Source: Proteiniphilum propionicum (GTDB lineage Bacteria; Bacteroidota; Bacteroidia; Bacteroidales; Dysgonomonadaceae). Taken from it: 64,000 nucleotides of DNA. The position numbers were made by a program, and so were the translations under genes. This document shows, one piece after another, positions 7,207-63,370 of this stretch. The notes below the pieces were generated by a model, which did not search any database, was not told where the DNA came from, and worked only from the letters and a program-made list of their open reading frames with translations. The DNA lies in assembly GCF_022267555.1 (NCBI RefSeq), contig NZ_CP073586.1, positions 3,328,501 through 3,392,500 of the forward strand. Direction: 5' to 3'. Each line of letters opens with the position of its first letter. Positions within the stretch are counted from its first letter, which is position 1.

Positions 7207-7309
7207 AGAAAAGACTTATCGGAGTGAGCTCAAATATTAAGGTGAAAACTCTAATAACGGATAAACTGAATACATTAATGCTGATTTACTGACTTAGAAA
7301 AATCACAAC

Positions 7310-38777: not shown

Positions 38778-39353
38778 ATGAGTAGAGAAGCCTGGCAAAA
38801 ATTCCTGAAAGGAGACGAAAATGCATTCTCAGATCTTTATAGTTTCTACTTTAAAGAGCTTTTTGCGTATGGACTTAAAATAGGATTCAATGAAGATGAA
38901 TGTAAAGATGCTATACAAGATGTTTTTTTTAATATCTACATTTCCAGGAAAAAACTGTCACATGTACAAAATATTGAATTTTACCTGCTTCAAAGCCTGA
39001 AAAATAAATTGTTCGACTTTCATAACCGCGAAACAAAAATCAACCGCATAAACTATGAGGATATTTTTATAAATAACGAAGATGGCATAGTTGAACAGAT
39101 CATCAATAAAGAAAAACAGCTTGAAATTAAGAATATTATTTCTCAATTTCTACAAAAGCTGCCGCCAAAACAGAGAAAAATTATCTATTACCATTATCAG
39201 TTGAATCTTAATATTGAAGAGATAGCCACAATTTTAGAGATGACAACACCAGCAGTAAAAAAATCACTCTACAGGGCTCTACAGAAAATAAAGGAGACTT
39301 CATCAGATATAACGCAAAACATATTCACTCATTTTTTAACCATTGTTGGTTAA
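38778..39353 (+). CDS. ECF-type RNA polymerase sigma factor
   Basis: Extracytoplasmic-function sigma-70 factor of the Bacteroidetes FecI-like group. Region 2 is DLYSFYFKELFAYGLKIGFN and ECKDAIQDVFFNIYISR; region 4 is LPPKQRKIIYYHYQLNLNIEEIATILEMTTPAVKKSLYRALQ-like with the expected HTH. Length is 191 aa. It pairs with the FecR anti-sigma gene 247 nt downstream and the STN-containing SusC. It should therefore activate the SusC/D operon when substrate is present. It lies 10 nt after folA, so basal expression could come from the thyA-folA promoter. Confidence 0.93.
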   Translation: MSREAWQKFLKGDENAFSDLYSFYFKELFAYGLKIGFNEDECKDAIQDVFFNIYISRKKLSHVQNIEFYLLQSLKNKLFDFHNRETKINRINYEDIFINNEDGIVEQIINKEKQLEIKNIISQFLQKLPPKQRKIIYYHYQLNLNIEEIATILEMTTPAVKKSLYRALQKIKETSSDITQNIFTHFLTIVG

Positions 39354-39600
39354 TCTTCCTTAAATATGTCTTTTTTTTTATTATTCCCGGTCTTTGTATT
39401 ATAAAGCCTAAGGTAGTTTGTGTTAAGAGATCTCTATAGTGTTTTTCAAAACATTCGAGACAAGAGTTCCCTTACAAAACGTTTCTACCATTGCAATTAG
39501 GTCAATTTATGTGTTGATAAACTTTATATTATGAATATTTATTATTGATATTCAGTTTTTTAGAAGAAGACTCGTAATAATAAGATTAAGATAAGACAAG

Positions 39601-40746
39601 ATGAGCCATAATGATTTTTTGTGTGACGACCTTTTTATTTATTGGAGATTACATCCAACCAAAGAGCTGGACTCCTTTTGGGAAGAATATCTTCTTGAGA
39701 ATAAGAAAGCCAGCGTCCCATTCAATGAAGCTATCGAAGCTTTCGAAATGATAAGGAACGAACAAAATAATTATCATTTCGACGAATCTTCCCTACGAGA
39801 AAAATTGAATGAGAGAATTAAAAAACATAAGAATAAAAATATTTATAGAATATTTGCCTCATCTGCAGCTGCCATATTACTAGTTACATTGATATCCACT
39901 TTTTACGTTCTTAACAGAATGGGTGATAGGGAAGGAACTGACATATCCTCAACGGGAGTGATGATCAACAATAGCAGTGTGCAGCTTGTTACTGGAAACA
40001 AAGTACTGGAAATTGACAACAACTCCACTTTAAATCTTTCTGAAAAAAAACATAGCGCATTAATTACTAATTCGCTTGCACATAAAGAGATCGATTTAAA
40101 AGACAACCAATCTAACAGACTAATAGTACCGTATGGTAAGAGATCGACTTTGGTATTGGCTGACGGATCTAAAGTACTTCTGAATTCCGGAACCAAAATG
40201 GAATTTCCTTCAATGTTTAGTGGGGAAGACAGAGAAATAAGAGTAGAAGGAGAAATATTCATCGATGTTGTAAAACAAGACAATGTACCTTTTATTATTC
40301 AAACACCTAATTCCAGAATAACTGTCTTCGGCACCTCATTTAACGTCTCTTCATATTCCGATGAGAAGAGTGAATCGGTTGTTTTGGTTGACGGTTCGGT
40401 TGAGGTAAGGAGCGGAAACAGCGCTTTGATATTAAAGCCAAATGAAATGGCAGTGATTGAAGACGGATATATTGAACATAAGACTGTTGATGTGTTAAAT
40501 TATATATGCTGGACTAGTGGCTATATGCAATTGAATAAAACTCCACTAAATGATGTATTGAGAAAAATTGAAAGATACTATAATGTAAATTTTCAATACA
40601 ATGATGATTTAAAATTAAACGTTCAGACCTGCTCGGGTAAATTATTTCTTTCTGACAATTTCGACGATGTACTCGAAGCGTTTTCAAAAATGACCTACTT
40701 GCAATATGAAAAGCACGATGATAAATCTATATTCATCCATAAATAA
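39601..40746 (+). CDS. FecR-type anti-sigma factor
   Basis: Inner-membrane anti-sigma factor that relays the signal from the SusC STN domain to the ECF sigma factor. The N-terminal cytoplasmic part (residues 1-78) is followed by one transmembrane helix (about 81-101, IFASSAAAILLVTLISTFYV). The periplasmic FecR domain has IVPYGKRSTLVLADGSKVLLNSGT and FGTSFNVSSYSDEKSESVVL. The C-terminal DUF4974 domain starts near residue 310 (LNKTPLNDVLRKIERYYNV). Length (381 aa) is normal. The 247 nt before it contain no other gene. Confidence 0.94.
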   Translation: MSHNDFLCDDLFIYWRLHPTKELDSFWEEYLLENKKASVPFNEAIEAFEMIRNEQNNYHFDESSLREKLNERIKKHKNKNIYRIFASSAAAILLVTLISTFYVLNRMGDREGTDISSTGVMINNSSVQLVTGNKVLEIDNNSTLNLSEKKHSALITNSLAHKEIDLKDNQSNRLIVPYGKRSTLVLADGSKVLLNSGTKMEFPSMFSGEDREIRVEGEIFIDVVKQDNVPFIIQTPNSRITVFGTSFNVSSYSDEKSESVVLVDGSVEVRSGNSALILKPNEMAVIEDGYIEHKTVDVLNYICWTSGYMQLNKTPLNDVLRKIERYYNVNFQYNDDLKLNVQTCSGKLFLSDNFDDVLEAFSKMTYLQYEKHDDKSIFIHK

Positions 40747-40799
40747 TCAAGTTATTAACAAAAAAGATAAATATATATGCCTATGAGAAAAGATAAATG

Positions 40800-40835
40800 A
40801 AAAAAAAGTCGGATAGTGCCGCAAACACTATCCGA
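40800..40835 (-). terminator. Minus-strand intrinsic terminator in the SusC leader
   Basis: Perfect 10-bp stem TCGGATAGTG/CACTATCCGA (40809-40818, 40826-40835), 7-nt loop, then on the minus strand C and eight T. The U-run is on the minus strand only, so it does not serve the plus-strand fecR gene. Confidence 0.85.
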
Positions 40836-40940
40836 TCAGAGTTGATTTTGATGTCAAACAGGAGCAAAATTTGTATGATTATGCCTTGCGACAACAAAAT
40901 CTAAAAGTGAATCATAATTTATTGGTAACAAATTAAAATT
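40800..40940 (-). ncRNA. Candidate cis-antisense sRNA opposite the SusC leader
   Basis: Predicted from signals only. On the minus strand a promoter lies at 40976-40946 and a strong intrinsic terminator at 40835-40800, with no minus-strand ORF between them. The transcript would be about 140 nt and fully complementary to the leader of the SusC mRNA. Bacteroides PULs are known to carry antisense RNAs (the DonS family) in this same position next to susC, so a repressor of the SusC/D operon is the natural reading. Confidence 0.6.
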
Positions 40941-40945
40941 CAATA

Positions 40946-40976
40946 CAAAGATATGCAAGAAAAGTATAAATGTAAA
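40946..40976 (-). promoter_or_regulatory. Minus-strand promoter at the SusC start codon
   Basis: Minus-strand TATCTTTG (40953-40946) is an exact TAnnTTTG -7 element. TTTA (40976-40973) lies 19 nt upstream at the -33 position. It points away from susC and toward the minus-strand terminator about 110 nt downstream. Confidence 0.65.
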
Positions 40977-43900
40977 CAATTTGCCACGAAAAGAAACAAA
41001 AAGTTTTTAAAAATCATGAAAATCTATTTTTTGATAACTTTCCTTTGCATTTTTTCCGTTACGGCAGAAAACACATACTCCCAGTCGAAGGAGGTAAGTG
41101 CTGAATTGAGAGACGTAGCGTTAAAAGATGCATTTCGTGAATTAGAGAAAAACAGCGACTATCTCTTCCTTGTTATGGACAACACAGAGAGTTATTTAAC
41201 AACTAAAGTTAACATCTCAGTCAACAATAAATCAATGGTAGAGATACTCGATTTGTTGCTTAAGAATACCAACCTGACCTACTCAATTGTTAACAGACAG
41301 ATTACAATTTCGAGAAAACCGGGTATTGCTGAAAATAAGGAGATTGATGTAAAAACAAGCATCAAGGAAGTTCAACAGACAGAAAAAACAATTACAGGAG
41401 TGGTTACCGATGCGAATGGAGAAGCCATTATCGGAGCCAATATAATTGAAGTGGGAACTCCTTCCCATGGAACTATTACCGACATTAACGGAAGATTTAC
41501 ACTAAATGTAAGCAACAATGCATCCATTAAAGTCTCATTTATAGGATATCTGAGTCAAACAATCAATACTATTGGGAAGACCAGCTTTAATATCACCCTG
41601 GCTGAAGATACTCAGGCACTTGAGGAGGTGGTGGTGGTGGGCTATGGAACACAGCGGAAAGCAAATCTTACAGGTGCTGTATCTTCAGTAAACGTTGACG
41701 AGGTGCTGGGCAGCCGTCCGGTTGCCGACGTGGGGAGAGGGCTGCAGGGGACTATACCAGGGCTGTCAATTGTTGTCCCAAGCGGAGAAGTAGGTTCTAA
41801 CCCAATTATGAAAATTCGTGGACAAATTGGCTCTATTGCAGGGTCAAGTGATCCGCTGATATTAGTGGATAATGTTGAAATACCGAATATTCAAATGATA
41901 AATCCAAATGATATAGAATCGATATCCGTTTTGAAAGATGCCGCAGCAAGTTCAATATACGGATCGAAAGCAGCATTTGGAGTAATTCTTATAACCACAA
42001 AAAAAGGAGCTAAAACTGAAAAGACAGATATAACATATTCAACCAACTTATCCTGGCAAAAACCCTTTAAAAAGATTGATATTGCAGGTATAGACGGACT
42101 GGAGTATACACTGGAAGCTCATGAGAATATGAAAGCCGGAGGTCCTGCAGGCGGTTTCTGGCGAGTAAACAGGGAAAGTTTTGAAAAAATAAAAGAGTGG
42201 CAGGATAAATACGCAGGAGTTGTAAAATACAATGATCCTGTAATTTATGGAAGGGACTGGATTTATGACGGAACTGATAAATTCGGATATAGAATTTATG
42301 ATCCTGTAGAGGCCATGATCAAAAATTCAGCCTTTTCTCAAACACACAACCTATCACTTAACGGTAAAAGAAAAGATACTAATTATACATTAAGTGTAGG
42401 TTACCTTGGACAAGAGGGTATGATGAAACCAGCTGTTCATGATGATTACAGTAGGTTTACAGGCAATCTGAATTTATCTACAAAGCTCACAGATTTCTTA
42501 ACAGTCAGGGGGGGAGCAATGTTTACCGATGCAACCAAAAGATACCCAAACTCGGCAACTGGGTTCGTTGCAGACCCATGGTTATATCTTTACAGATGGA
42601 GCCGCCTGTTTCCTACCGGTGCCCTTGAAAACGGAGAAGAGGTGAGAGACCCCTATTTCGACACCAAAAATGCACATACAGCGAAAGATAAGAAGAAATA
42701 CACGAATCTGAATATAGGAACCACCTTTGATTTCAATGATAACTGGAACCTTCTTGCAGATTATGCATTCAGTACCCGATTAGATCAGTCAACATCGTCC
42801 AGACCCACTTTTAGCGGACGTGAACCATGGTACACACCTGTTGCCTGGAATGATGCCAACGGAAACCGTATTTATGTGGATGAAAACGGCAACATTACAA
42901 ATGACGAAGGAATGCCGGGATACAGGCTCCCTTATGTAAATTATATTACATCTGATAAAACCTATTTTTACAAATACTCCTTTGTTTCCGAGAAACACAC
43001 TTTCAATGCAGTGACTAATTATAATTTAAAACTGGCAGAGGACCATAATTTTAAATTTATGGCAGGTACAAATATAGAAAGTTATAAATGGGACAGTCAC
43101 TGGTCTAACAAAACTGAATTAATAGATGAGAAAAATCCACAGTTTAATTTTGCCGTAGGTACTGAAACTGTAGGAGGTGGTGCCAACTGGGACTCACAGG
43201 TAGGGGTTTTCAGCCGGATAAATTACTCTTTTATGGATAAGTATCTGTTAGAGGCGAACCTGCGCTATGATGCGACTTCTAAGTTTCCAAGTAATCTGAG
43301 ATGGAGATGGTATCCGTCATTTTCCGGAGGATGGGTAATCACTAATGAATCGTTTATGGCTCCATTGGATCCGATTTTGAGTTTTGCAAAAATACGTGCA
43401 TCATGGGGTAAGATTGGAGATCAATCAGTTTCCAACGCATTATACCTGGCAACAATGGATATTAATAAAAATTCCTGGCTCTCTTACGACGGTGAACAGT
43501 ATTTTCAGCTTAGCACTCCCAATCCTATTTCTGCAGGTATCACCTGGCAGGATATAGAATCTTTAAATATTGGTTTGGATTTGCGTTTTATCAACAATAA
43601 GATGGGGCTTGTGTTTGAATGGTTCCAGCGCGATACAAAAAACATGATTATTGCCGGTGACGCTCTTCCAGCAACATATGGAGCAAACGCTCCACAGGGA
43701 AACTATGGTAATCTGCGCACAAAAGGCTGGGAAATTGCTGCCGACTTCAACCACCGGTTCAGTAATGGATTGGGCATAAATGTAAATGCCAATATTTCAG
43801 ATGCTATTACTGATATAACAAAAGGTGCTGATTGGAATACACCATGGGAGAATCGCTTGATACATAACAATTATGCTACTGGCAGGCGCTATGGTGATAT

Positions 43901-44723
43901 ATACGGATATGTTACTGATCGCCTATTTCAAAAAGAAGATTTTATTTACGACGACAACGGTAACATCCAGCAAACAATAATCATCTGGGAAGGCACTGCT
44001 AAACGAACCAACCAGCTTGCAGGCAAAAATCCGGTTTATCAGACCTATTTTGAGGATGGCAACCAGGTGTTACTGGTAGGCCCCGGTGATGTTAAGTTTG
44101 TTGATGTGAATCGTGACGGATATATCACCCCTGGTAAAAACACTTTTGGAGATCCAGGAGACCAGGTTGTTATTGGGAACTTTACACCCCGTTACGAATT
44201 CGGATTACGTCTGGGAGCCGATTATAAAGGTTTTGATGCTTCAGTTTTTTTCCAGGGAGTGGGGAAGCGAAAAATTTGGGGTGCCGGACAATTGGCCATA
44301 CCCGGATTTCACGTGAAAGATGGTGCGATGCCACAAGCAATAGCTAAAGATTTTTGGAAAAAGGACAGGACAGATGCTTTCTACCCAAGGGCATGGAATT
44401 TAGGCGGTTCGAATGAAGGATTCGTGATGCGAAAGCAGTCGCGTTATATGCTAAATATGGCATATTTAAAAATTAAAAATATCACATTGGGTTATACTGT
44501 ACCAAAAGATATTGTAAGCCGGATGTATTTATCGAATGCGCGCTTATATATATCATTTGAGAACTTCTTTACTTTCGACAAGTTAAGGGGTCTTCCGATA
44601 GATCCGGAAGCAATTTCCGGACATTCTATGTTATTGACCAATGGAAATTACAACCTTGGCCGAACCGGGACTTCCAATCCTACATTTAAATCAGCATCTG
44701 TAGGTTTTCAAGTTAGTTTATAA
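40953..44723 (+). CDS. SusC/RagA TonB-dependent transporter with STN signalling domain
   Basis: Outer-membrane importer that also signals to FecR. A long N-terminus (MQEKYKCKQFATKRNKKFLK) precedes a signal peptide at about residues 22-44; a start at 41016 (MKIY) is possible. Next come the STN domain (about 48-117, ELRDVALKDAFRELEKNSDY), a carboxypeptidase-like domain (147-225, ITGVVTDANGEAIIGANIIE), the TonB box EEVVVVGYGTQRK, a plug (ADVGRGLQGTIPGLSIVV) and the barrel ending FKSASVGFQVSL. Length is 1256 aa. In context the cargo is likely a peptidoglycan-derived glycan, by inference from downstream genes. Confidence 0.95.
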   Translation: MQEKYKCKQFATKRNKKFLKIMKIYFLITFLCIFSVTAENTYSQSKEVSAELRDVALKDAFRELEKNSDYLFLVMDNTESYLTTKVNISVNNKSMVEILDLLLKNTNLTYSIVNRQITISRKPGIAENKEIDVKTSIKEVQQTEKTITGVVTDANGEAIIGANIIEVGTPSHGTITDINGRFTLNVSNNASIKVSFIGYLSQTINTIGKTSFNITLAEDTQALEEVVVVGYGTQRKANLTGAVSSVNVDEVLGSRPVADVGRGLQGTIPGLSIVVPSGEVGSNPIMKIRGQIGSIAGSSDPLILVDNVEIPNIQMINPNDIESISVLKDAAASSIYGSKAAFGVILITTKKGAKTEKTDITYSTNLSWQKPFKKIDIAGIDGLEYTLEAHENMKAGGPAGGFWRVNRESFEKIKEWQDKYAGVVKYNDPVIYGRDWIYDGTDKFGYRIYDPVEAMIKNSAFSQTHNLSLNGKRKDTNYTLSVGYLGQEGMMKPAVHDDYSRFTGNLNLSTKLTDFLTVRGGAMFTDATKRYPNSATGFVADPWLYLYRWSRLFPTGALENGEEVRDPYFDTKNAHTAKDKKKYTNLNIGTTFDFNDNWNLLADYAFSTRLDQSTSSRPTFSGREPWYTPVAWNDANGNRIYVDENGNITNDEGMPGYRLPYVNYITSDKTYFYKYSFVSEKHTFNAVTNYNLKLAEDHNFKFMAGTNIESYKWDSHWSNKTELIDEKNPQFNFAVGTETVGGGANWDSQVGVFSRINYSFMDKYLLEANLRYDATSKFPSNLRWRWYPSFSGGWVITNESFMAPLDPILSFAKIRASWGKIGDQSVSNALYLATMDINKNSWLSYDGEQYFQLSTPNPISAGITWQDIESLNIGLDLRFINNKMGLVFEWFQRDTKNMIIAGDALPATYGANAPQGNYGNLRTKGWEIAADFNHRFSNGLGINVNANISDAITDITKGADWNTPWENRLIHNNYATGRRYGDIYGYVTDRLFQKEDFIYDDNGNIQQTIIIWEGTAKRTNQLAGKNPVYQTYFEDGNQVLLVGPGDVKFVDVNRDGYITPGKNTFGDPGDQVVIGNFTPRYEFGLRLGADYKGFDASVFFQGVGKRKIWGAGQLAIPGFHVKDGAMPQAIAKDFWKKDRTDAFYPRAWNLGGSNEGFVMRKQSRYMLNMAYLKIKNITLGYTVPKDIVSRMYLSNARLYISFENFFTFDKLRGLPIDPEAISGHSMLLTNGNYNLGRTGTSNPTFKSASVGFQVSL

Positions 44724-44740
44724 TCAATTAAATTAATATT

Positions 44741-46555
44741 ATGATGAAATTCAATAAATATAGTTTTGCCATTTTATCCTTGTTAATATTTTTCTGGGGG
44801 TGTGACAGTTTTCTTGACAGGCCGCCTCTTACTCAAGCAAATGATGAAACAGCCTGGGTAAGCGAGAATAATTTGAGATTATATGCCAATAAATTCCTTC
44901 CTGATTTTTTTATAGGGTATGGAGTAGGATGGACAAATTCCAGTGCACCGTTAATGGGATATCAGTTCAGTGATGACATTGTGCATAATGGCAATCAGGG
45001 TAACTTTACCCGTGCCGTACCCAACAGCCAAATATGGAACATGAGTCTTATCAGGTCGATAAACATTATGCTTGACAGAATTGAAAACAAGATGGGAGAT
45101 GTTCTTACATCTGAGCAATATTCACACTGGACTGGTGTTGGAAGGTTTTACAGAGCGATGAGATACTCTACTCTGGTATTTGCCTATGGTGATGTACCAT
45201 ATTATAACCACGTGGTCTCAGATACCGATATGGATGATCTGTACAAGGCCCGTACTCCACGCAATGAGGTAATGGATTCGATATATTATGATTTGAACTA
45301 TGCATTTGAAAACGTTCGGGTAAACGATGGGGAGATGAATGTAAACAGATACGTAGTTGCCGGATATATTTCAAGAATTGCGTTATATGAAGGGAGCTGG
45401 CAAAAATATTATTATAAAAACAATGAGCGGGCTCAAAAATTCCTCGAGCTTGCAATAGAGGCAGGCAACTACATAATAAACAGTGGCAGATACGATATTG
45501 TCAGCGAATTCAGAGCTCTCTTCACATCAGAAGATTTGAGAGGGAACAAAGATTGTATTTTTTACAGGCATTATGATCCTGCTGTTGGCATTACACATAG
45601 TGTAGCATCGAACAACAACCTATCGGAATCGATCAATTTCGGTCCCACAACTGCTCTGATCAAGTCGTTTATTATGAATGATGGTGATGTGTGGCAAAAT
45701 ACGAGCATGCCTGGAGCAAAAAACTTTGAACTGGCAAATATGATTAAAACCCGTGATCCAAGGCTGGAAGCTACTTTTTACGATAAGCCTACTCCACGGA
45801 ACAAAGGATCTTTCTGGTACATTAATAAATTTTTGCCAAGAAGCGTTGCCAAATCAGTAGAAGAAGGGAATACACCTCCGGTTGAATTTACAAGTACCAA
45901 TAACCGTACAGATTATCCGGTAATGAGATATGCTGAGGTTCTTCTTAACTGGATTGAAGCAAAAGCCGAACTGCAAACCATTGGCGGTGCTGCTGTAGAT
46001 CAGTCAGATATTGATAAAACAATAAACAAGATAAGAAACAGGCCGATAGCTTCAGAAGCAGCGGAGATGGGAGTACAAAAAACCTCTCCTTTACTATTGG
46101 GTGAACTGCCTGATGATCCTGAAAGAGATGCCGATGTTTCTGCACTGATATGGGAAATAAGGAGAGAGAGAAGGATGGAGTTTGCTTTTGAACATTCACG
46201 TATCGCCGATTTGGAGCGTTGGCACAAACTGGAATACATGGATACAGATGCTGAAGAAGATCTACTGCATGGCGGATGGGTAAACTTCCCAAAAGAGCTT
46301 GCCGATGAATTAAATGCAGGAAATACAGGAAAATTTTCAGTGTTAAAGCTTAATGGCGATGAAGTAACTTTTAACGGAAGCAATAAAGCCGATATGGTGG
46401 GTTTCTACAGAAGTTCATCTACTAATGGACGACAGCCATTCCTGAACCAGGTAAACGTTAATCCTTACTTGTCTCCCGTAGGCAAAACACAGATTGACGA
46501 TTATGCCAGTAAAGGTTATCTGTTAAAACAGACCGAAGGATGGCCGACCAACTAA
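44741..46555 (+). CDS. SusD/RagB outer-membrane lipoprotein
   Basis: Surface lid and substrate-binding partner of the upstream SusC. The signal FAILSLLIFFWGC ends in a lipobox; the mature protein starts CDSFLDRPPLTQANDETAW. The SusD features include the FYRAMRYSTLVFAYGDVPYY TPR segment, RYAEVLLNWIEAKAEL, and IWEIRRERRMEFAFEHSRIADLERW. Length is 604 aa. It follows susC by 17 nt. The start could be the second ATG at 44744. Confidence 0.95.
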   Translation: MMKFNKYSFAILSLLIFFWGCDSFLDRPPLTQANDETAWVSENNLRLYANKFLPDFFIGYGVGWTNSSAPLMGYQFSDDIVHNGNQGNFTRAVPNSQIWNMSLIRSINIMLDRIENKMGDVLTSEQYSHWTGVGRFYRAMRYSTLVFAYGDVPYYNHVVSDTDMDDLYKARTPRNEVMDSIYYDLNYAFENVRVNDGEMNVNRYVVAGYISRIALYEGSWQKYYYKNNERAQKFLELAIEAGNYIINSGRYDIVSEFRALFTSEDLRGNKDCIFYRHYDPAVGITHSVASNNNLSESINFGPTTALIKSFIMNDGDVWQNTSMPGAKNFELANMIKTRDPRLEATFYDKPTPRNKGSFWYINKFLPRSVAKSVEEGNTPPVEFTSTNNRTDYPVMRYAEVLLNWIEAKAELQTIGGAAVDQSDIDKTINKIRNRPIASEAAEMGVQKTSPLLLGELPDDPERDADVSALIWEIRRERRMEFAFEHSRIADLERWHKLEYMDTDAEEDLLHGGWVNFPKELADELNAGNTGKFSVLKLNGDEVTFNGSNKADMVGFYRSSSTNGRQPFLNQVNVNPYLSPVGKTQIDDYASKGYLLKQTEGWPTN

Positions 46556-46664
46556 CAATTATAATGAAAACAGTATGAAACGAGCGGGTAAACGGTCTGC
46601 ACATATGTACATGATTAAAAGCAAGTTCCATACAATACAGTTGAAAGTCAATAATTTTAATAGT

Positions 46665-48092: not shown

Positions 48093-48122
48093 CAAAACGG
48101 ATGATTTTAATATAAATACTTT

Positions 48123-48165
48123 AAATAACTTTGCCGGATATTTTTCGGCAAAGTTATTTGTTTCT
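48123..48165 (+). terminator. Stem-loop after the DUF4623 gene
   Basis: Perfect 14-bp stem AAATAACTTTGCCG/CGGCAAAGTTATTT (48123-48136, 48146-48159), 9-nt loop, followed by GTTTCTG. It probably ends or attenuates the SusC-SusD-DUF4623 transcript. The left arm also contains TAACTTTG, which fits a -7 promoter element for the next gene. Confidence 0.7.
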
Positions 48166-48200
48166 GTATTATTAACAATACTTCGGTAATTTATTTAAAA

Positions 48201-49661: not shown

Positions 49662-49944
49662 GACAGAGATTTGCAAAAACAATTATGCCAATTGTCAGAG
49701 TTTTGCTATTTTTACCGTTTTATGATTCTATTACAAAACAATAGTTCGGTATTATTTCATAAGATCAACCATAACTGATTGGTTGTTAATAACAAATATA
49801 ACTTTATAAATAGCTTTAATTTCGTGATTATTTGAATATCAAGTAAAATATAGCCGTGCAATCATTTAATAATATTCACATTGAATGAATATCAACCGGA
49901 CATATAATAAAAGAAACAACTTGATAAATTGAAAGAATGCTTAC
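49662..49944. other. Intergenic region before the amidase operon
   Basis: 283 nt, A/T-rich, with no ORF. It separates the SusC/D-GHL10 part from the amidase-to-MurQ part, so it probably holds a second promoter. The best candidate -7 element is the imperfect TAGCTTTA near 49811. Confidence 0.4.
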
Positions 49945-52977: not shown

Positions 52978-53046
52978 CCACATCACGCGAAGAGCAGGTA
53001 GCTTTCATGACACAAACAACGCGTGATGCCTAAACAATATTGAACA

Positions 53047-55808: not shown

Positions 55809-55814
55809 AACACA

Positions 55815-57131
55815 ATGCAAATGAATCAATCTACACGATCCCCCTGGTCTTGGATACCAACCCTTTACTTCGCCGAAGGCCTGCCATACGTGGCAGTAAT
55901 GACCGTTTCGGTTATCATGTACAAGCGTTTCGGACTGTCAAACACAGAGATAGCCCTGTACACAAGCTGGTTATACCTTCCATGGGTAATCAAACCCTTC
56001 TGGAGCCCGTTTGTGGATATCCTGAGAACCAAACGGTGGTGGATCATCTCCATGCAATTGTTGATAGGTGCCGGGCTTGCAGGGGTGGCTTTTACCCTCC
56101 CTACTCCCTTCTATCTGCAGGCATCACTTGCCTTCTTCTGGCTGATGGCTTTCAGTTCGGCCACTCATGATATCGCAGCAGACGGTTTTTATATGCTTGC
56201 CCTTGACGATTCACAACAATCCTTCTTCGTTGGTATACGCAGCACCTTCTATCGCCTTGCCTCAATAACCGGTCAAGGATTACTGGTTGTTCTGGCTGGA
56301 TTCCTGGAAAAATCGACCGGCAAAATTCCTTATGCATGGAGCATCACCTTTTTTATCCTGGCGGGACTTTTTCTGACATTTTTCGTCTATCACCGCTTTG
56401 TTTTGCCTTACCCGCACGCTGATACCGGAAAATCAGCCCACACACCACAGGAGGTGATGACTGAGTTTGGAAATACCTTCAAATCTTTTTTTACTAAAAA
56501 AGGAATAGGGCTGGCAATCGCTTTCATGCTACTGTACAGGCTGGCCGAAGCGATGCTTGTCAAACTGGCATCACCATTTTTATTAGACAGCCGTGATATG
56601 GGCGGATTGGGACTACACACTTCTGAAGTAGGCATAACCTATGGTACGGTGGGCGTGATCGCCCTTACACTTGGCGGAATCATCGGCGGAATTGTGGCTT
56701 CCCGTCAGGGATTGAAATTCTGGTTGTGGCCGATGGCATTGGCCATTACGTTGCCCAATGCGGCTTATCTTCTCCTTGCGTACTTTCAGCCTGATAGTTT
56801 CATATGGGTGAATGTGGCTGTAGCTGTTGAACAGCTTGGATACGGTTTCGGATTTACGGCATATATGCTATACCTTATCTATTTCTCACAGGGTGAACAC
56901 AAAACAGCTCACTATTCCATCTGCACGGGAATTATGGCACTCGGAATGATGCTTCCGGGGATGGCTGCAGGATGGATACAGGAACAACTGGGATACCAGC
57001 ACTTTTTTATCTTTATCATGATTGCTACAATCCCTACATTACTGTTGATTCCTTTCATGAAAGTGGACAAAGATTTCGGAAAATCAAAGAAAACACCTTT
57101 GCCGGGTGAAGAAGTCACTACTGAACAGTAA
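55815..57131 (+). CDS. MFS permease, AmpG-like muropeptide transporter
   Basis: Twelve-helix inner-membrane transporter of the AmpG branch of the major facilitator superfamily. The match is strongest in WSWIPTLYFAEGLPYVAVMT (TM1), YLPWVIKPFWSPFVDILRTK and SSATHDIAADGFYMLAL, the position of the SQDIAxDA motif in AmpG. Length is 438 aa. It starts 6 nt after the SpoIID gene and precedes namZ. In this context it should bring anhydro-muropeptides, disaccharides or MurNAc into the cytoplasm. Exact cargo cannot be read from the sequence. Confidence 0.87.
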   Translation: MQMNQSTRSPWSWIPTLYFAEGLPYVAVMTVSVIMYKRFGLSNTEIALYTSWLYLPWVIKPFWSPFVDILRTKRWWIISMQLLIGAGLAGVAFTLPTPFYLQASLAFFWLMAFSSATHDIAADGFYMLALDDSQQSFFVGIRSTFYRLASITGQGLLVVLAGFLEKSTGKIPYAWSITFFILAGLFLTFFVYHRFVLPYPHADTGKSAHTPQEVMTEFGNTFKSFFTKKGIGLAIAFMLLYRLAEAMLVKLASPFLLDSRDMGGLGLHTSEVGITYGTVGVIALTLGGIIGGIVASRQGLKFWLWPMALAITLPNAAYLLLAYFQPDSFIWVNVAVAVEQLGYGFGFTAYMLYLIYFSQGEHKTAHYSICTGIMALGMMLPGMAAGWIQEQLGYQHFFIFIMIATIPTLLLIPFMKVDKDFGKSKKTPLPGEEVTTEQ

Positions 57132-57192
57132 CCATTCCGGCAAATAAATAGGAATTAATCATTAATCCAGTAAAAAAACAAACTCAAAAAAA

Positions 57193-58491
57193 ATGCACCG
57201 GTTAATAATCACAAAAATAAATAATTTAGGCAACTCCTGCTTTTTATTAACTAAAACAGTAGCAGCTATGGCATTAATGCTTTACTGTATGACAATCACA
57301 TCATCAGCTTTTGCCCGGAATATACGTGTCAAAACCGGAATTGAAGTGCTGAAGGAGTCTAACTTCAAGATCCTTCAGGGAAAACGTGTGGGACTGATCA
57401 CCAACCCTACCGGAGTGGATAATGACCTGAAATCGACGATAGATATTCTGCATGAAGCTCCCGGCGTGCAGCTTGTAGCGCTTTACGGGCCCGAACACGG
57501 TGTGCGCGGCGATGTGCATGCCGGCGACAAAATCGATTCATTCACCGATTCCAATACGGGTGTGCCCGTTTATTCCCTCTATGGTGCCACTCGAAAACCG
57601 AGCAAAGAAATGTTGAACGGTGTAGATGTCCTCGTCTACGATATTCAAGACATCGGATGCCGGTCATACACCTATATCTCAACCATGTATCTGGCAATGC
57701 AGGCGGCTGCTGAAAACGATATTGAATTTGTGGTGCTCGACCGCCCAAACCCGTTAAGCGGTTTGAAAGTAGAAGGAAATCTTGTGGAGGAGGGATTTGT
57801 TTCGTTTGTGAGCCAGCTAAGGATTCCTTATATTTACGGCCTTACCTGTGGCGAGCTGGCAGAGATGATAATTGGCGAACAGATGATATCAAGGCCTTGT
57901 AAGCTGACAGTGGTGAAGATGAAAAAGTGGCACCGGAAGATGAACTTCGAGGATACCGGACTACCCTGGGTGCCCACCTCGCCACACATCCCGTTTTCTC
58001 ATTCTGCATTTTTTTATCCTGTATCAGGCATTTTAGGTGAACTGGGATATATGTCTATCGGCGTTGGATATACGCTGCCGTTCGAGATGTTTGCCGCTGA
58101 ATGGATCAACGCAGAAGAGTTTGCCAGGACGCTGAATGCAAAACAGCTGCCGGGTGTCATTTTCCGCCCCATACACCTGAAGCCCTATTATTCAGTTGGA
58201 CAGGGACAGGACTTTCAGGGAGTACAGATATATCTTACCGATTTTTTCAGTGCGCGTCTGTCGGATATCCAGTTCCATGTAATGGAGGTGTCTGCGCAGC
58301 TCTATCCAGACAGAAAAGTGTTCGAGCGTGCTCCCGAAAACCGATTCAATATGTTCGACAAGGTATGCGGTAGCGATTTTATCCGTCTGGAATTTTCCAA
58401 GAACCATCGTTTTGCCGACATTCAATCTTATTGGACAAAAGATGAAAAGTCGTTCAGATTATTATCAAAGAAATATTACCTTTACCGGTAA
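57193..58491 (+). CDS. namZ: Exo-beta-N-acetylmuramidase NamZ (DUF1343, GH171)
   Basis: Removes MurNAc from the non-reducing end of peptide-free peptidoglycan glycans. The family pattern is complete: KTGIEVLKESNFKILQGKRV, GLITNPTGVD, LYGPEHGVRGDVHAGDKID, VYDIQDIGCRSYTYISTMYL, VLDRPNPLSG and GLPWVPTSPHIP. A signal peptide lies at about residues 17-37 (ending SSAFA); because the first 16 residues are unusually long, a later start (57271, MALML) is possible. Length is 432 aa. It follows the AmpG-like gene by 61 nt and feeds the kinase and MurQ downstream. Confidence 0.93.
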   Translation: MHRLIITKINNLGNSCFLLTKTVAAMALMLYCMTITSSAFARNIRVKTGIEVLKESNFKILQGKRVGLITNPTGVDNDLKSTIDILHEAPGVQLVALYGPEHGVRGDVHAGDKIDSFTDSNTGVPVYSLYGATRKPSKEMLNGVDVLVYDIQDIGCRSYTYISTMYLAMQAAAENDIEFVVLDRPNPLSGLKVEGNLVEEGFVSFVSQLRIPYIYGLTCGELAEMIIGEQMISRPCKLTVVKMKKWHRKMNFEDTGLPWVPTSPHIPFSHSAFFYPVSGILGELGYMSIGVGYTLPFEMFAAEWINAEEFARTLNAKQLPGVIFRPIHLKPYYSVGQGQDFQGVQIYLTDFFSARLSDIQFHVMEVSAQLYPDRKVFERAPENRFNMFDKVCGSDFIRLEFSKNHRFADIQSYWTKDEKSFRLLSKKYYLYR

Positions 58492-58595
58492 ACTTCGTAA
58501 AAAGAAGTTTTTTGCACAATGGTACTAACATAATACTTGCATAAACCGGGTTTATGCATTCAATAAATAATTCAACAACAATATATTATTGAAAG

Positions 58596-59768
58596 ATGAA
58601 CAGAATTACTTCACCTGATAAAAGCGGAAGGCTGCTTTCGCTTGATATTCTGCGCGGAATAACTATAGCGGGTATGATAATGGTCAACAATCCAGGCTCA
58701 TGGAGCTACGCCTATGCGCCACTCAAACATGCTCATTGGCATGGACTTACACCGACCGATCTTGTATTCCCGTTCTTTATGTTTATTATGGGTGTATCCA
58801 CCTTTTTGTCGCTGCGAAAATTCAACTTTGAACCTTCAAGAGCAGCAGTATGGAAAATTGTACGGCGTACCTTCCTCATTTTCGTGATGGGACTGGCACT
58901 GGGATGGTTCGGGCAGTTATGCAGGGGATTGGCTTCGGGAGAGTCTTTTTTTGAGGCATCAACCCATTTCAACACCCTCCGCATACTCGGAGTACTGCAA
59001 AGGCTGGCGCTGGCATACGGGTTTGCCGCCCTGGCCGCAGTTCTGGTGAAGGGCAAACTGCTGCCGTGGGTGGTTGGCATCCTGCTTCTGGGGTATTACC
59101 TGATTCTTCGTTTCGGAAAAGGGTTTGAGATGTCGGAAGAGAATATTATAGCGGTGGTGGACAAAGCACTTCTGGGGACTGCCCATATGTATAGAGACAC
59201 CACGCCGGAAGGGGTACGCATAGCATTTGAACCAGAAGGGTTGCTTAGCACCCTCCCCTCCGTCGCCCATGTACTGATCGGTTTTCTTTCAGGGAAACTG
59301 ATTGTGGAGAACAAAGACAACCACACACGGGTGGAGAAGCTGCTTATATGGGGAACTGTACTTGCTTTCTCAGGCTTATTGCTGCAATATGGATGCCCAA
59401 TAAATAAGAAAATATGGAGCCCCACCTTCGTGCTCGTCACCACCGGCTTTGCCGCGCAACTGCTGGGACTGCTGATCTGGATCATCGATATCCATCAAAA
59501 AGAGAGATGGAGCCGTTTCTTTCACGCCTTCGGAGTGAACCCGCTCATTGTATATGTTTTTGCAGGCGTAATGGCCAACCTGGTCGCCAACATCCGGCTT
59601 AACTGGCAGGGAGAGATAATCTCTGTAAAAGGGTTTATTTACGAAGTGCTGCTGCGCCCGTGGGCGGGGGACTATTTCGGATCGCTGCTCTATGCGCTGC
59701 TGTTCATCACTGTATGCTGGCTGTTCGGATATATTTTATACAAAAAGGATATCTATATAAAAATTTAG
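58596..59768 (+). CDS. NagX-like membrane protein (DUF5009/HGSNAT-type)
   Basis: Polytopic inner-membrane protein of the heparan-alpha-glucosaminide N-acetyltransferase-like family; bacterial NagX proteins are linked to amino-sugar uptake. The signature RLLSLDILRGITIAGMIMVN opens the sequence and is followed by PTDLVFPFFMFIMGVSTFLS. About nine to ten transmembrane helices follow, with HAFGVNPLIVYVFAGVMANL near the end. Length is 390 aa. It lies between namZ and the amino-sugar kinase, so it may move MurNAc or GlcNAc across the membrane or acetylate glucosamine. Confidence 0.85.
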   Translation: MNRITSPDKSGRLLSLDILRGITIAGMIMVNNPGSWSYAYAPLKHAHWHGLTPTDLVFPFFMFIMGVSTFLSLRKFNFEPSRAAVWKIVRRTFLIFVMGLALGWFGQLCRGLASGESFFEASTHFNTLRILGVLQRLALAYGFAALAAVLVKGKLLPWVVGILLLGYYLILRFGKGFEMSEENIIAVVDKALLGTAHMYRDTTPEGVRIAFEPEGLLSTLPSVAHVLIGFLSGKLIVENKDNHTRVEKLLIWGTVLAFSGLLLQYGCPINKKIWSPTFVLVTTGFAAQLLGLLIWIIDIHQKERWSRFFHAFGVNPLIVYVFAGVMANLVANIRLNWQGEIISVKGFIYEVLLRPWAGDYFGSLLYALLFITVCWLFGYILYKKDIYIKI

Positions 59769-59798
59769 CATTTTAATTGATTCGAAACTCTTTTAAAG

Positions 59799-60680
59799 AT
59801 GAGCAAATCAAAATTTTTCACCTCTTCAGGTTCAGAAGAAATAACAGACCCCATTCTTATTGCCGACAGTGGTGCCACCAAAACCGACTGGTGCCTGACT
59901 AAAAAAGGGGAGATACTTCACAGGTTTACAAGTAGAGGGATAAGTCCAATTTTTCAGACTCAGGAAGAGATAGCCGAAGAGATAAGATTGCGTGTTTATC
60001 CTAATTTGGAAAAAACTGAAATTCAGGCACTCTTTTTTTACGGAAGCGGCTGCATCCCGGAGAAAACAGAACAGGTGCGCAGCGCCATCTATCAGTCATT
60101 TCCTATTAATACCATCCATGTAAATAGCGATCTGGTAGCAGCTGCTCACAGCCTGTGCGGCCACAAGCCCGGCATTGCCTGCATCATGGGTACCGGCAGC
60201 AATTCATGTGAATGGAGCGGATCTGCAATAGTAAAACAGATATCACCACTCGGTTTTATTCTGGGTGATGAAGGCAGCGGGGCCTCATTAGGAAAAAAGC
60301 TGGTGAGCGATGCGTTAAAAAATCAATTATCCAAAGGTTTAAAAGAGGAGTTTCTGGATGAATACGGGCTTACCCCCTCTCTTATTATCGACAGGGTGTA
60401 TAAGCAACCCTTCCCAAGTCGTTTTCTGGCAAGCCTCTCGCCCTTTCTGCTTAAACATATCAATGATCAGAGTATTCGCCGTATTGTTACCGGCAGCTTT
60501 TCAGATTTCTTCGAGAGAAACGTTATGCAATACGATTATCAGAAAAATAAGGTTAATTTTGTAGGATCAATCGCTTGGCACTACTCTGACCTGCTGAAGG
60601 AGATAGCAATAGAAAAAGGAATTGAGATTGGGAAGATATCACAATCGCCCATGGAGGGATTGATAGAATATTATATATGA
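59799..60680 (+). CDS. BadF/BadG-type amino-sugar kinase (MurNAc/GlcNAc kinase, MurK-like)
   Basis: ASKHA-fold ATPase that likely phosphorylates MurNAc (and perhaps GlcNAc) at O6. The phosphate-1 loop is LIADSGATKTDWCL. Phosphate-2 and adenosine motifs are IMGTGSNSCEWSG and LGFILGDEGSGASLGKKLV. Length is 293 aa, like the kinase of the Tannerella MurTKQ operon. Its stop overlaps the murQ start (ATGA), so the two are made together. That coupling supports MurNAc as a substrate, since MurQ needs MurNAc-6-phosphate. Confidence 0.9.
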   Translation: MSKSKFFTSSGSEEITDPILIADSGATKTDWCLTKKGEILHRFTSRGISPIFQTQEEIAEEIRLRVYPNLEKTEIQALFFYGSGCIPEKTEQVRSAIYQSFPINTIHVNSDLVAAAHSLCGHKPGIACIMGTGSNSCEWSGSAIVKQISPLGFILGDEGSGASLGKKLVSDALKNQLSKGLKEEFLDEYGLTPSLIIDRVYKQPFPSRFLASLSPFLLKHINDQSIRRIVTGSFSDFFERNVMQYDYQKNKVNFVGSIAWHYSDLLKEIAIEKGIEIGKISQSPMEGLIEYYI

Positions 60681-61507
60681 ATATGGCTTTTATAAAAGTA
60701 ACAGAACAATCATCTTTATACGATGATCTGGAGAAAAAAACGGTTCTCGAAATTCTGACAGAAATCAATCAGGAGGATCACAAAGTGGCAGCAGCTGTCC
60801 AAAATACTATTCCCGAAATTGAGAAGCTCGTAACAGGTATCGTTGAAAGGATGCGGCGGGGAGGACGGCTTTTTTACATTGGTGCCGGGACAAGCGGCAG
60901 GCTTGGTGTACTTGACGCCTCGGAGATACCACCCACTTTCGGTATGCCCAACACCTATGTGATAGGGCTGATAGCAGGAGGCGACACAGCACTGCGTAAC
61001 CCGGTTGAAGCAGCTGAAGACGATCCTGACAAAGGATGGGAGGAGCTTATGGAACACAAAATAAATGAGAACGATGTACTTGTGGGCATTGCCGCATCGG
61101 GTACAACACCCTACGTGGCAGGTGCGCTACGGCATGCGCGTAAAAAGGGAATACTTACCGGTGCTATCAGTTGCAACCCAGGCTCACCCGTAGCAGCTGA
61201 AGCTGAAATAAAAATAGAACCCGTTGTGGGACCGGAATATGTTACCGGGAGTACGCGAATGAAATCCGGGACGGCTCAGAAAATGGTATTGAATATGATC
61301 ACCACCGGCACTATGATTAAACTTGGCAGGGTGAAAGGCAACCGCATGGTCAATATGCAACTTACAAACCAAAAGCTTGTGGATAGAGGTACCCGGATAA
61401 TTGTAGATGAACTGGGCCTTTCATATGGACAGGCGAAAAATCTGCTGCTTTTACACGGATCCGTCAAAAAAGCAATTGACAGCTATAAAAATCAGCAAAA
61501 ACTGTAA
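60677..61507 (+). CDS. murQ: N-acetylmuramic acid 6-phosphate etherase
   Basis: SIS-domain enzyme that removes the lactyl ether from MurNAc-6-phosphate to give GlcNAc-6-phosphate and D-lactate. Family hallmarks: LVTGIVERMRRGGRLFYIGA, GTSGRLGVLDASEIPPTFG, GIAASGTTPYVAGALRHARK, NPGSPVAAEAEIKI and VTGSTRMKSGTAQKMVLNMI. Length (276 aa) is slightly short but complete. It is translationally coupled to the kinase gene. NagA and NagB needed for the next steps are not in the window. Confidence 0.97.
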   Translation: MNMAFIKVTEQSSLYDDLEKKTVLEILTEINQEDHKVAAAVQNTIPEIEKLVTGIVERMRRGGRLFYIGAGTSGRLGVLDASEIPPTFGMPNTYVIGLIAGGDTALRNPVEAAEDDPDKGWEELMEHKINENDVLVGIAASGTTPYVAGALRHARKKGILTGAISCNPGSPVAAEAEIKIEPVVGPEYVTGSTRMKSGTAQKMVLNMITTGTMIKLGRVKGNRMVNMQLTNQKLVDRGTRIIVDELGLSYGQAKNLLLLHGSVKKAIDSYKNQQKL

Positions 61508-61512
61508 TCAGA

Positions 61513-61854: not shown

Positions 61855-62123
61855 TCTTTCTTAATTCTCATTTATAGACTGTCACTATCTTTTTTACTTT
61901 TATGTTTTTCAGTCACGACCCGGATTACAACTCTCATAATGCTCATCGTTTCATTCACATAAAAATAGCGGTCGTACTTGCACTTTCATCCGGTCAATTT
62001 CAACCCACATGATGCCCATAGTTTCATTCACATATGCGATAGCAAAGGAAACTAAATAAAAAAACTTTCCAACATACCCTATTATGCCTGATAAATGAAC
62101 CTTTAAGTTAACTATATCACGCT
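61855..62123. other. Intergenic stretch without a gene
   Basis: Part of a 385-nt gap between the murQ operon and the FemAB-like gene. No ORF or hairpin terminator is evident here. There are two loosely similar segments around 61955 and 62025 (both with TTTCATTCACAT), a minor repeat. Confidence 0.4.
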
Positions 62124-62184
62124 AAGTGCAACTTTCCGCTAAGTTCAATTTAGAAGTGCAACTTTCCCGGTAAGTTTTATTTAG
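62124..62184. repeat. Two-copy imperfect tandem repeat upstream of the FemAB-like gene
   Basis: A 30-nt unit (62124-62153) starting AAGTGCAACTTTCC and ending ATTTAG is followed at once by a 31-nt copy (62154-62184) with a few changes. It lies just upstream of the -7 element, so it may bind a regulator. Confidence 0.7.
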
Positions 62185-62210
62185 ATTTTTTTTAGCCGAC
62201 TTATTTTGGC

Positions 62211-62218
62211 TACCTTTG
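62211..62218 (+). promoter_or_regulatory. -7 element of the FemAB-like gene
   Basis: TACCTTTG matches TAnnTTTG; the predicted start is about 62224, 16 nt before the ATG. The -33 position holds only a T-rich tract. Confidence 0.6.
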
Positions 62219-62239
62219 CGGGTTTAAAATGCAAATGGT

Positions 62240-63370
62240 ATGTTAACGAACATTCGTTCAAAAGGGACGGAAGAACTTTATGCCACACCCATTTTACAGC
62301 AGACAGCTTTCTGGTCGGCAGTGAAGAGAACACTTGGAGCAGAGGCGATAGCAATTAACTTCTCGTCGCGAAGATCCGGAATGTACTCAGTTTCAGGAAA
62401 AGATAGCGACTATGTTATAAAGTCTGATGTGCTGGTTATACTTCAGCAAATAGACAGGAATCACTCCGTGGCATATGTTCCATACGGGCCGGAAATTGAA
62501 CCCGATGACGAGTTTCAGGGATTGTTTCTGGAAGAGTTATCTGAATGTCTGCGCTCATTTTTACCTAAAGAGTGTATTCTCATCCGATACGACCTGTGCT
62601 GGGAATCGTATTGGGCAAAAGAGAAAGATTATTTCGATGAGAACGGTATGTGGAAAGGTGAACCTGAAATCCATACACAGGAGTTGCGTTTCAACTTCAA
62701 CACGCACAACTGGAATTTCAAAAAAGCCTGTTCCAATATCTTGCCGGCAAATACTATTTATCTGGATCTGACACACGATGCTGACACCCTTTTAAAACTT
62801 ATGAAACCTAAAACACGTTACAACATAGGTTTGTCTAAACGCAAAGGAGTAAATGTAAGATCGATGGGAATGGAAGGTATTGATATCTGGTACGATCTTT
62901 ACAAAGAAACGGCAGAAAGAAACAATATTCTCCTCAACGACATAAAATACTTCAATGCAGTACTTACAGCACGCACCGATAACACCAGCTCACCGGCAAA
63001 CGTGAAACTATTAGTGGCGGAATTCAAAGGAAAACCGCTGGCGGCCATGTTTCTGGTTATAAGTGGTAACAGGGGTTCGTACCTTTACGGCGCATCTTCA
63101 TCGCAACACCGGAACCTTATGGCAACCTATGCATTACAGTGGGAGGCCATCATGCAGTCAAGAAACGCAGGCTGTACAGAATACGATATGTTTGGCATCT
63201 CTCCTTCTCCTGAACCTTGTCATCCGCTTTACGGGTTGTACAGATTCAAGTCAGGTTTCGGCGGCGAAATTTTTCACAGCCTCGGCTGTTGGGATTATCC
63301 CCTTAACAGCGAAATGTATACACTTTTCCGTGCATCGGAGTTGAACAGTCAGGGATATCATTTAAGTTAA
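62240..63370 (+). CDS. FemA/FemB-family aminoacyl (peptidoglycan bridge) transferase
   Basis: Double-GNAT-fold transferase of the FemABX family, which adds amino acids from aminoacyl-tRNA to cell-wall precursors. Recognised by the MKPKTRYNIGLSKRKGVNVR helix, ERNNILLNDIKYFNAVL and the second-half motif SYLYGASSSQHRNLMATYAL followed by CTEYDMFGISPS. Length is 376 aa. It has its own promoter. Bacteroidota generally cross-link stems directly, so a Fem protein here is notable; the amino-acid donor and acceptor are unknown. It sits next to murQ, in line with a cell-wall neighbourhood. Confidence 0.88.
   Translation: MLTNIRSKGTEELYATPILQQTAFWSAVKRTLGAEAIAINFSSRRSGMYSVSGKDSDYVIKSDVLVILQQIDRNHSVAYVPYGPEIEPDDEFQGLFLEELSECLRSFLPKECILIRYDLCWESYWAKEKDYFDENGMWKGEPEIHTQELRFNFNTHNWNFKKACSNILPANTIYLDLTHDADTLLKLMKPKTRYNIGLSKRKGVNVRSMGMEGIDIWYDLYKETAERNNILLNDIKYFNAVLTARTDNTSSPANVKLLVAEFKGKPLAAMFLVISGNRGSYLYGASSSQHRNLMATYALQWEAIMQSRNAGCTEYDMFGISPSPEPCHPLYGLYRFKSGFGGEIFHSLGCWDYPLNSEMYTLFRASELNSQGYHLS

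Follow-up and report, generated by a model that had tools for sequence, protein, structure and literature searches.

Organization of the locus

The DNA analyzed here, hereafter called the window, is a 64,000-nucleotide stretch of Proteiniphilum propionicum, taken from a 3.9-Mb genome that consists of one contig and whose relatives place it in the order Bacteroidales. It contains a gene cluster made up of two halves: a block at 38778–49661, built around a SusC/SusD outer-membrane transport system like those with which gut bacteria take up dietary fiber, which is new, and a known peptidoglycan-recycling operon at 49945–61507. Judging from gene content and genomic context, the substrate of the SusC/SusD block is likely to be the glycan of peptidoglycan, which the locus would import and degrade. 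A sequence-only reading of the window had proposed such a route, and all the genes that it named are present on the + strand, as judged by Pfam and NCBIfam matches; it overlooked a glycosyltransferase gene within the second half.

All genes in question from position 37404 onward lie on the + strand, and this run begins with a thymidylate synthase gene and a dihydrofolate reductase (DHFR) gene. The block then starts with an extracytoplasmic function (ECF) sigma factor gene (38778–39353; Pfam Sigma70_r4_2, E 2e-13, and Sigma70_ECF, E 5e-6), followed by genes for a FecR anti-sigma factor (39601–40746; FecR and FecR_C), an STN-SusC TonB-dependent outer-membrane transporter (40953–44723; STN, CarbopepD_reg_2, Plug and TonB_dep_Rec) and a SusD surface lipoprotein (44741–46555; SusD_RagB, E 5e-30, with a Cys after the signal peptide recognized by eye). 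Next come a DUF4623 lipoprotein with a beta-propeller, which is a candidate surface glycan-binding protein (46575–48092; PF15416, E 2e-183; lipobox VSC|GDD), and a GHL10 glycosidase predicted to be a surface lipoprotein (48201–49661; PF02638, E 5e-65, 220 bits against a cut-off of 27.9; lipobox VVSC|NDD), the only enzyme within the block. Signal peptides and lipoboxes were judged by pattern throughout. Two features by which a polysaccharide utilization locus (PUL) is recognized are found here: susC and susD are adjacent, with 17 bases between them, and this tandem is linked to a glycan-active enzyme (GHL10) and to a regulator (ECF/FecR).

The second half opens with a gene for a secreted 1010-amino-acid Golvesin-domain protein, possibly a peptidoglycan amidase of the Amidase_3 type (49945–52977; PF25275, E 1e-28), and continues with the overlooked family 2 glycosyltransferase (GT2) gene (53047–54498; PF00535, E 9e-24) and genes for a SpoIID/LytB-domain protein with no recognizable signal peptide (54465–55808; TIGR02669, 189 bits against a cut-off of 83), an AmpG-like permease of the major facilitator superfamily (MFS; 55815–57131) and a secreted NamZ exo-muramidase of family GH171 with both NamZ_N and NamZ_C domains (57193–58491; PF07075, E 8e-86, and PF20732, E 2e-36; PDB 4k05, E 1e-192). 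A NagX-like DUF5009 membrane protein (58596–59768), a MurK-like kinase for N-acetylmuramic acid (MurNAc) (59799–60680; matching Tannerella forsythia MurK structures, E 2e-89) and the MurNAc-6-phosphate etherase MurQ (60677–61507) complete it. MurQ is followed by a small open reading frame (ORF) and a FemAB-like gene at 62240–63370, which the sequence-only reading had taken into its range without discussing it. A FemAB-like gene is also present 3' of MurQ in genomes G010 and G003 (stretches L109 and L117).

Occurrence of the SusC-SusD-DUF4623-GHL10 block

DUF4623 was matched in 18 of 101 genomes of the family, 11 of which belong to the genus sample of 39 genomes, all taken as searched. Matches were also obtained in 11 of 393 genomes of the order, exceeding 400 bits only in the own genome, G158 and G377, and in 34 of 395 genomes of the phylum, exceeding 400 bits in four (own, G158, G489 and G754). 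Weak or partial matches in the order and phylum samples do not enter the counts below. The loci fetched for DUF4623, as well as stretches L003–L008, which were found through GHL10, hold SusC, SusD, DUF4623 and GHL10 together; contig ends cut G012, G026 and L006, with SusC unseen in the latter two. The order is DUF4623-GHL10-SusC-SusD in G051 and G055, where the DUF4623 matches are weak (131 and 96 bits), and in L008 dockerin, propeller and Amidase_3 proteins stand between DUF4623 and GHL10. Full-length SusC orthologues from these core loci are 46–80% identical to the STN-SusC of the window, compared with 31% for its best near-full-length paralogue within the own genome.

The sigma/anti-sigma pair that had been put forward as part of the system is present in the window, but among 27 core loci FecR was found in only 10, each from the own family (G000, which is the own genome, G006, G007, G010, G012, G025, G034, G040, G078 and G100). 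The SusCs associated with FecR are about 100 residues longer, owing to the STN domain. Most core SusCs outside the FecR loci, plus those of G021 and G030, have about 1130–1172 residues, with FecR absent from the stretch; the SusCs of L087 and L101 are exceptions that have a long N-terminus with no FecR in the stretch, and in L090 FecR was seen in the locus scan though missing from the SusC listing. The pair goes with the STN-type SusC and is a lineage addition outside the core.

Gene neighborhood of the block in other genomes

Twenty-six core loci were informative about neighbors, after exclusion of G012, whose contig ends in GHL10, and with G489, which is the same locus as L004, counted once. 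A peptidoglycan or MurNAc gene lies near the block in 22 of them, across two orders, with flanks that vary from about 3 to 30 kb; the far parts of L108, L111, L118 and L119 were covered by tblastn with the window proteins alone, which would miss Amidase_3. In the genus, all 10 informative blocks (G000, G006, G007, G010, G013, G021, G025, G026, G030 and G034) stand beside the operon or its first genes, G026 having been joined from two contigs through a 94-residue GHL10 match. MurQ itself was seen in G000 and G010, and the other stretches or contigs of the genus end earlier, except for G021, which has GT2, SpoIID, AmpG, NamZ and MurK with no match for the Golvesin gene, DUF5009 or MurQ. In other genera of the family, six of seven informative loci have such neighbors: the operon up to and including MurQ, with the gene order of the window (G078 and G100), the Golvesin protein with MurK (G043 and G055) or with an Amidase_3 protein (G057), and rearranged operon parts (G051). 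Taken over the whole family, 16 of the 17 informative blocks are thus accompanied by the operon or parts of it. The count is two of four in other Bacteroidales, with a multidomain Amidase_3 protein in both L007 and L008, and four of five in other orders, where Sphingobacterium L003, L004, L005 and L006 have MurQ 3' of GHL10 (in L006 the contig breaks off after its first part) and L004 and L005 also have NamZ 5' of SusC. As a rough control, which omits Amidase_3 and has shorter flanks, 10 of 74 GHL10 loci without the block hold a homologue of the Golvesin protein, SpoIID, AmpG, NamZ, MurK or MurQ at E ≤ 1e-20; SusC is present in 10 of the 74, two of which hold such a homologue.

These neighborhoods also bear on another explanation, namely that the SusC/SusD block imports a different amino-sugar glycan, such as a chitin-like polymer, poly-glucosamine or a secondary polymer, e.g., teichoic acid, and shares only the N-acetylglucosamine (GlcNAc)/MurNAc end of the pathway. 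In G006, G007 and G010, GHL10 is separated from the Golvesin gene by a family 9 glycoside hydrolase (GH9) and a polysaccharide deacetylase; the same two lie beside MurQ in Sphingobacterium L004, where a NAGPA phosphodiester glycosidase and a phosphoesterase of the calcineurin type also occur. Moreover, GHL10 paralogues are many, and four core loci stand alone. However, no GH9, deacetylase or chitinase family match was found in the gene run of the window, MurQ, NamZ and amidase neighbors, which are tied to MurNAc or peptidoglycan, are found repeatedly in two orders, and the nearest GHL10 relative of known structure cleaves peptidoglycan (PMC6016235). We therefore consider a different amino-sugar glycan an unlikely substrate.

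The GH9/deacetylase pair, fused or adjacent, recurs in relatives beside GHL10, the Golvesin gene or MurQ (L084 10534–13005, L090 7883–10456, L089 5486–7944, L120 8650–11169, L100 6028–8526 and L004 13342–15824) and could strip the glucosamine ends left after NamZ action. A set consisting of a ROK kinase, an MFS permease and a 253-residue protein also recurs near the block or its position before the operon (L097 3724–6788, L098 16509–19560 and L100 3107–6012). The 253-residue protein is SIS_2 in L098 and L100, the two scanned of the three, and the set may be an alternative sugar-phosphate branch.

An exchangeable slot before the operon

Upstream of the operon, 22 genus genomes were informative: 10 carry the block, nine carry another SusC/SusD pair (G001, G002, G003, G004, G014, G024, G027, G031 and G037) and three carry none (G018, G029 and G033). 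The DHFR-ECF-FecR arrangement is retained before the replaced pair in G002, G004, G031 and G037, an ECF fragment is retained in G029, and in G003 five genes lie in between and only SusD falls within the stretch. The 17 uninformative genomes comprise G012 (cut), five with contig ends (G011, G015, G017, G035 and G038), two that were not fetched (G020 and G032) and nine without the NamZ of the operon. The gene-order comparison in relatives thus bears out the association of the block with peptidoglycan genes and at the same time reveals that the block is exchangeable and not obligatory: the operon does not need it, because the slot holds another SusC/SusD pair or none in relatives.

Such exchange would also be expected if the gap between DHFR and the operon were simply a landing spot for polysaccharide loci and the block were unrelated to the operon, and the own genome holds dozens of SusCs (127 match pieces). 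A SusC tree speaks against accidental neighborhood. It was built with FastTree from 56 proteins and rooted at the midpoint, with SusCs cut by stretch ends left out and with eight own-genome paralogues and the SusCs that came with other loci as background. Eight of the nine slot SusCs (that of G003 lies outside its stretch), 24 core SusCs and the SusC of L154, which belongs to a different genus of the family, group together in a single clade (support 1.0), to which the SusC of L161, also located beside the operon, is added, and this clade stands apart from the eight own-genome paralogues sampled. The core and the SusCs about 50% identical to it form a clade of 29 (support 1.0), and the core alone is unresolved (0.28). 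Furthermore, MurQ or Amidase_3 is again found near the block in other lineages, with the genes arranged differently. An accidental neighborhood is accordingly very improbable in our view. In L154 (G073, 34–7700), SusC, SusD, GHL10 and a NamZ paralogue precede the recycling operon; the GHL10 has no lipobox by pattern, and a DUF4623 match is absent from this region.

GHL10 and the predicted surface proteins

The nearest solved relative of the GHL10 protein is Cwp19 of Clostridioides difficile (5oq2, E 8e-79), a peptidoglycan lytic transglycosylase (PMC6016235). Among the 13 active-site residues proposed for Cwp19 (PMC5765458), 12 are kept in the window protein, Phe367 being replaced by Tyr. In a FastTree phylogeny of 107 GHL10 proteins, the 25 block-linked members form a clade with a support of 0.99. 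A lipobox is present in all 25, each with an Asp or Glu at most six residues past the Cys (by eye), whereas the simple lipobox pattern occurs in 12 of 82 other GHL10s, some of which are true lipoproteins, e.g., E. coli DigH. The acidic residues after the Cys resemble what we take to be the surface-export signal of Bacteroidota. From these motifs, the block GHL10 is predicted to reside on the cell surface, unlike most other members in this set. Lipoboxes were also found in the SusD and DUF4623 proteins of the block, a few of which missed the strict pattern.

DUF4623 has a solved relative (4ftd, E 1e-118). A structural model of the window protein (mean predicted local distance difference test score, pLDDT, of 76) consists of an N-terminal strand domain and a beta-propeller, and a Foldseek search with it gave 4ftd as the top match (TM 0.63/0.72), followed by other propellers. 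The family is unnamed in the open-licence literature searched, and the locus offers a candidate function for it.

The recycling operon

In T. forsythia, the genes Tanf_08345–08385, which encode a xanthan lyase, two glycosyltransferases, LytB, AmpG, YbbC, MurT, MurK and MurQ, form one transcript (PMC5388701 and PMC7670621). The gene order at 49945–61507 is the same, on one strand, with murT matched by position only; the Golvesin-domain gene occupies the xanthan lyase position, and there is one glycosyltransferase gene (GT2) where T. forsythia has two. The sequence-only reading had recognized recycling of the MurTKQ type, and the resemblance goes further than that: the MurNAc half is the published nine-gene peptidoglycan-recycling operon minus one glycosyltransferase, and hence is already known. 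No T. forsythia genome was among the stretches fetched, and the best MurK identity to a T. forsythia fragment is 64%.

Twenty stretches were fetched around DUF5009 matches in Bacteroidales, and 10 of them contain the run GT2-SpoIID-AmpG-NamZ-DUF5009-MurK-MurQ, two in the same family (L151 and L154) and eight elsewhere in the order (L152, L155, L156, L158, L159, L161, L162 and L165). A SpoIID match is absent in L154, about 3 kb separates NamZ from DUF5009 in L155 and L158, and the Golvesin gene is placed after MurQ in L161, L162 and L165. The DUF5009 protein, which had been labeled NagX-like, fails the NagX equivalog cut-off (NF046061, 137 vs 480 bits). It sits between NamZ and MurK, as murT does in the published operon, and because its gene is immediately 5' of MurK in all 10 run-bearing relatives, it is probably the MurNAc transporter MurT rather than NagX. 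The permease likewise fails the AmpG subfamily cut-off (TIGR00901, 184 vs 350 bits), and its AmpG-like function is suggested by its gene position, which is that of ampG in T. forsythia. AmpG is required in that organism for growth on GlcNAc-MurNAc and GlcNAc-anhydroMurNAc sources (PMC7670621), and a role for MurT has also been reported there. MurK of T. forsythia is a MurNAc kinase (PMC5790795), and the window MurK retains the lactyl-pocket Ser-Pro-Leu (S133-P134-L135) and the equivalents of Ile69 and Asp95 of the MurK structure (PMC10465942), with Thr94 replaced by Ser as in 1zxo. MurQ passes the NCBIfam equivalog cut-off (TIGR00274, 326 vs 302 bits).

The NamZ of the operon was found at an identity of at least 65% in 29 of 39 genus genomes. 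Short fragments resembling it occur in G005 (C17:19811–20146, with stops), G009 (C64:40317) and G036 (C85:12797), where no intact copy was found, which suggests that the locus has decayed in some members of the genus. The own genome has a second NamZ, 36% identical (C1:945535–946671); a further SusC gene (C1:939445–942606) lies on the other strand at a distance of about 3 kb.

Because MurA and MurB are present in the own genome, the organism can make its own MurNAc, unlike T. forsythia, which depends on outside MurNAc; MurNAc auxotrophy was rejected as an explanation for the same reason. This leaves outside MurNAc unneeded, and AmpG, NamZ, MurK and MurQ are recycling enzymes, as would be the case if SusC/SusD recovered glycan fragments shed by the cell itself and not food from other bacteria. 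A predicted surface hydrolase and an STN-SusC under ECF/FecR control are, however, features of nutrient capture, and T. forsythia uses foreign peptidoglycan with the same operon (PMC7670621). Self-recycling is therefore also improbable, slightly more so than import of another amino-sugar glycan.

The Golvesin-domain and SpoIID/LytB proteins

The Golvesin-domain protein has no Pfam match to Amidase_3 at E ≤ 0.001. A weak PF01520 match appears in 11 of 12 homologues examined (best E 0.002; window protein E 0.038), and His163, Glu186, His487 and Glu570 are invariant in all 33 homologues. The zinc and catalytic residues of Amidase_3 that served for comparison are those we take to be characteristic of the family. 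The hhalign probability was 1% against Amidase_3 proteins and 4% against AmiC, a profile of the protein searched against solved structures matched only in the Golvesin and fn3 regions, and AlphaFold2 prediction of residues 130–612 from the single sequence was uninformative (pLDDT 35). An Amidase_3-type identity, with which the protein had been labeled, is thus only weakly supported.

SpoIID/LytB proteins are expected to be exported, and the SpoIID of the operon departs from this expectation by its hydropathy. Its maximal N-terminal hydropathy is 1.29; the median among 38 orthologues is 1.18, and five of them (13%) reach 1.6. The corresponding medians are 2.65 for NamZ (n = 36) and 2.62 for the Golvesin protein (n = 33). 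In the window protein and most of 39 homologues, only a few residues precede the first strand of the domain, although a few listed ORFs are longer. A misannotated start was rejected, as the listed ORF already uses the earliest start codon downstream of a stop and most homologues share an EPxIxVGI-like stretch near the start. Because it has no recognizable signal peptide, as judged by hydropathy without a signal-peptide program, the operon SpoIID is probably cytoplasmic and would act after import by AmpG. For this type of enzyme, a SpoIID-domain protein lacking an export signal would mean a new place of action.

Proposed function of the locus

We propose the following route for peptidoglycan glycan. 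At the cell surface, DUF4623 and SusD would hold the glycan chain while the GHL10 lipoprotein cuts it, and SusC/SusD would import the resulting oligosaccharides across the outer membrane with TonB energy. Passage of the substrate may raise expression through the STN domain, FecR and the ECF sigma factor, a control that we infer to extend to the operon. In the periplasm, the Golvesin-domain protein would probably remove peptides and NamZ would free MurNAc from non-reducing ends. Transport of MurNAc and GlcNAc-MurNAc through the inner membrane would fall to the DUF5009 protein, the probable MurT, and to AmpG. MurK and MurQ would produce GlcNAc-6-phosphate in the cytoplasm, where the signal-less SpoIID would probably act on the imported oligosaccharides. 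The route from outer membrane to cytoplasm, as outlined in the sequence-only reading, draws support from genome context (MurQ in Sphingobacterium, Amidase_3 in two metagenome-assembled genomes and operon parts in 16 of 17 family loci), but the place of SpoIID in it has to be revised in view of its probable cytoplasmic location.

Several observations weigh against peptidoglycan glycan as the substrate. Besides the exchangeable slot, with another SusC/SusD pair in 9 of 22 genomes and none in 3, DUF4623 is restricted to 11 of 39 genus genomes, compared with 29 for the operon NamZ. In G040, G158, G377 and G754, tblastn with the window proteins, supplemented by Pfam scans of some ORFs, revealed neither a peptidoglycan nor a MurNAc gene near the block; in G158 and G377 the operon is located at another genomic site, and an M23 peptidase about 7 kb from the block in G377 was excluded from the count. 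The recurrent GH9 and deacetylase near the block or operon could indicate another glucosamine glycan. GHL10 alone is no proof of peptidoglycan, because the own genome has 10 GHL10 matches. The exact Bacteroidetes-type promoter pattern, in the form that we assumed, has no match in 36000–64000, including the 283-base gap before 49945. Finally, AnmK is absent from the own genome, and the same search found it in 5 of 14 control genomes. AnhydroMurNAc, the expected product of a lytic transglycosylase, is thus without a known salvage route here and would lead nowhere; this would not apply if GHL10 hydrolyzes the glycan.

Comparison with known systems

Although the operon and PULs are each known, their combination was not found in the open-licence literature searched, in which peptidoglycan glycan is assigned to no SusC/SusD system. 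Text searches of both papers on the T. forsythia operon (PMC5388701 and PMC7670621) found no mention of TonB, and for PMC7670621 none of a porin; the sole "susc" match was a reference title on susceptibility. No outer-membrane transporter for T. forsythia thus emerged from these searches. For Petrimonas mucosa, also of the Dysgonomonadaceae, peptidoglycan use is described as most probable from lysozyme-type families, and 39 PULs are reported (PMC7768429); a peptidoglycan PUL was not seen in the available part of that paper. For the passage of foreign peptidoglycan glycan through the outer membrane in Bacteroidota, this locus is a concrete, testable candidate, and it would provide a possible way for digester or gut bacteria to eat dead neighbors.

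The window GHL10 belongs to the same family as Cwp19 (148 of 343 aligned residues identical) and E. coli DigH (31% identical over 410 residues), but differs from both in that the block GHL10s, which are tied to SusC/SusD, branch off as a clade of their own, made up of predicted lipoproteins with acidic residues following the Cys. The T. forsythia operon is under the control of GppX, whereas that of the window has in front of it a SusC/SusD block with its own ECF/FecR pair. By gene composition and lipoboxes, the block can be likened to the levan system of Bacteroides thetaiotaomicron, a utilisome of SusC, SusD, a surface glycan-binding protein and a hydrolase (PMC11658791). The chances seem to us about even that SusC, SusD, DUF4623 and the surface GHL10 form a peptidoglycan-glycan utilisome under its own ECF/FecR switch, an exchangeable cassette before a conserved recycling operon with a cytoplasmic SpoIID. 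The block and the levan system comprise the same four kinds of component, namely a transporter, a SusD lid, a surface hydrolase lipoprotein and a further surface lipoprotein; in the present locus, however, the hydrolase is GHL10, the fourth protein is DUF4623 and the predicted substrate is the glycan of peptidoglycan.

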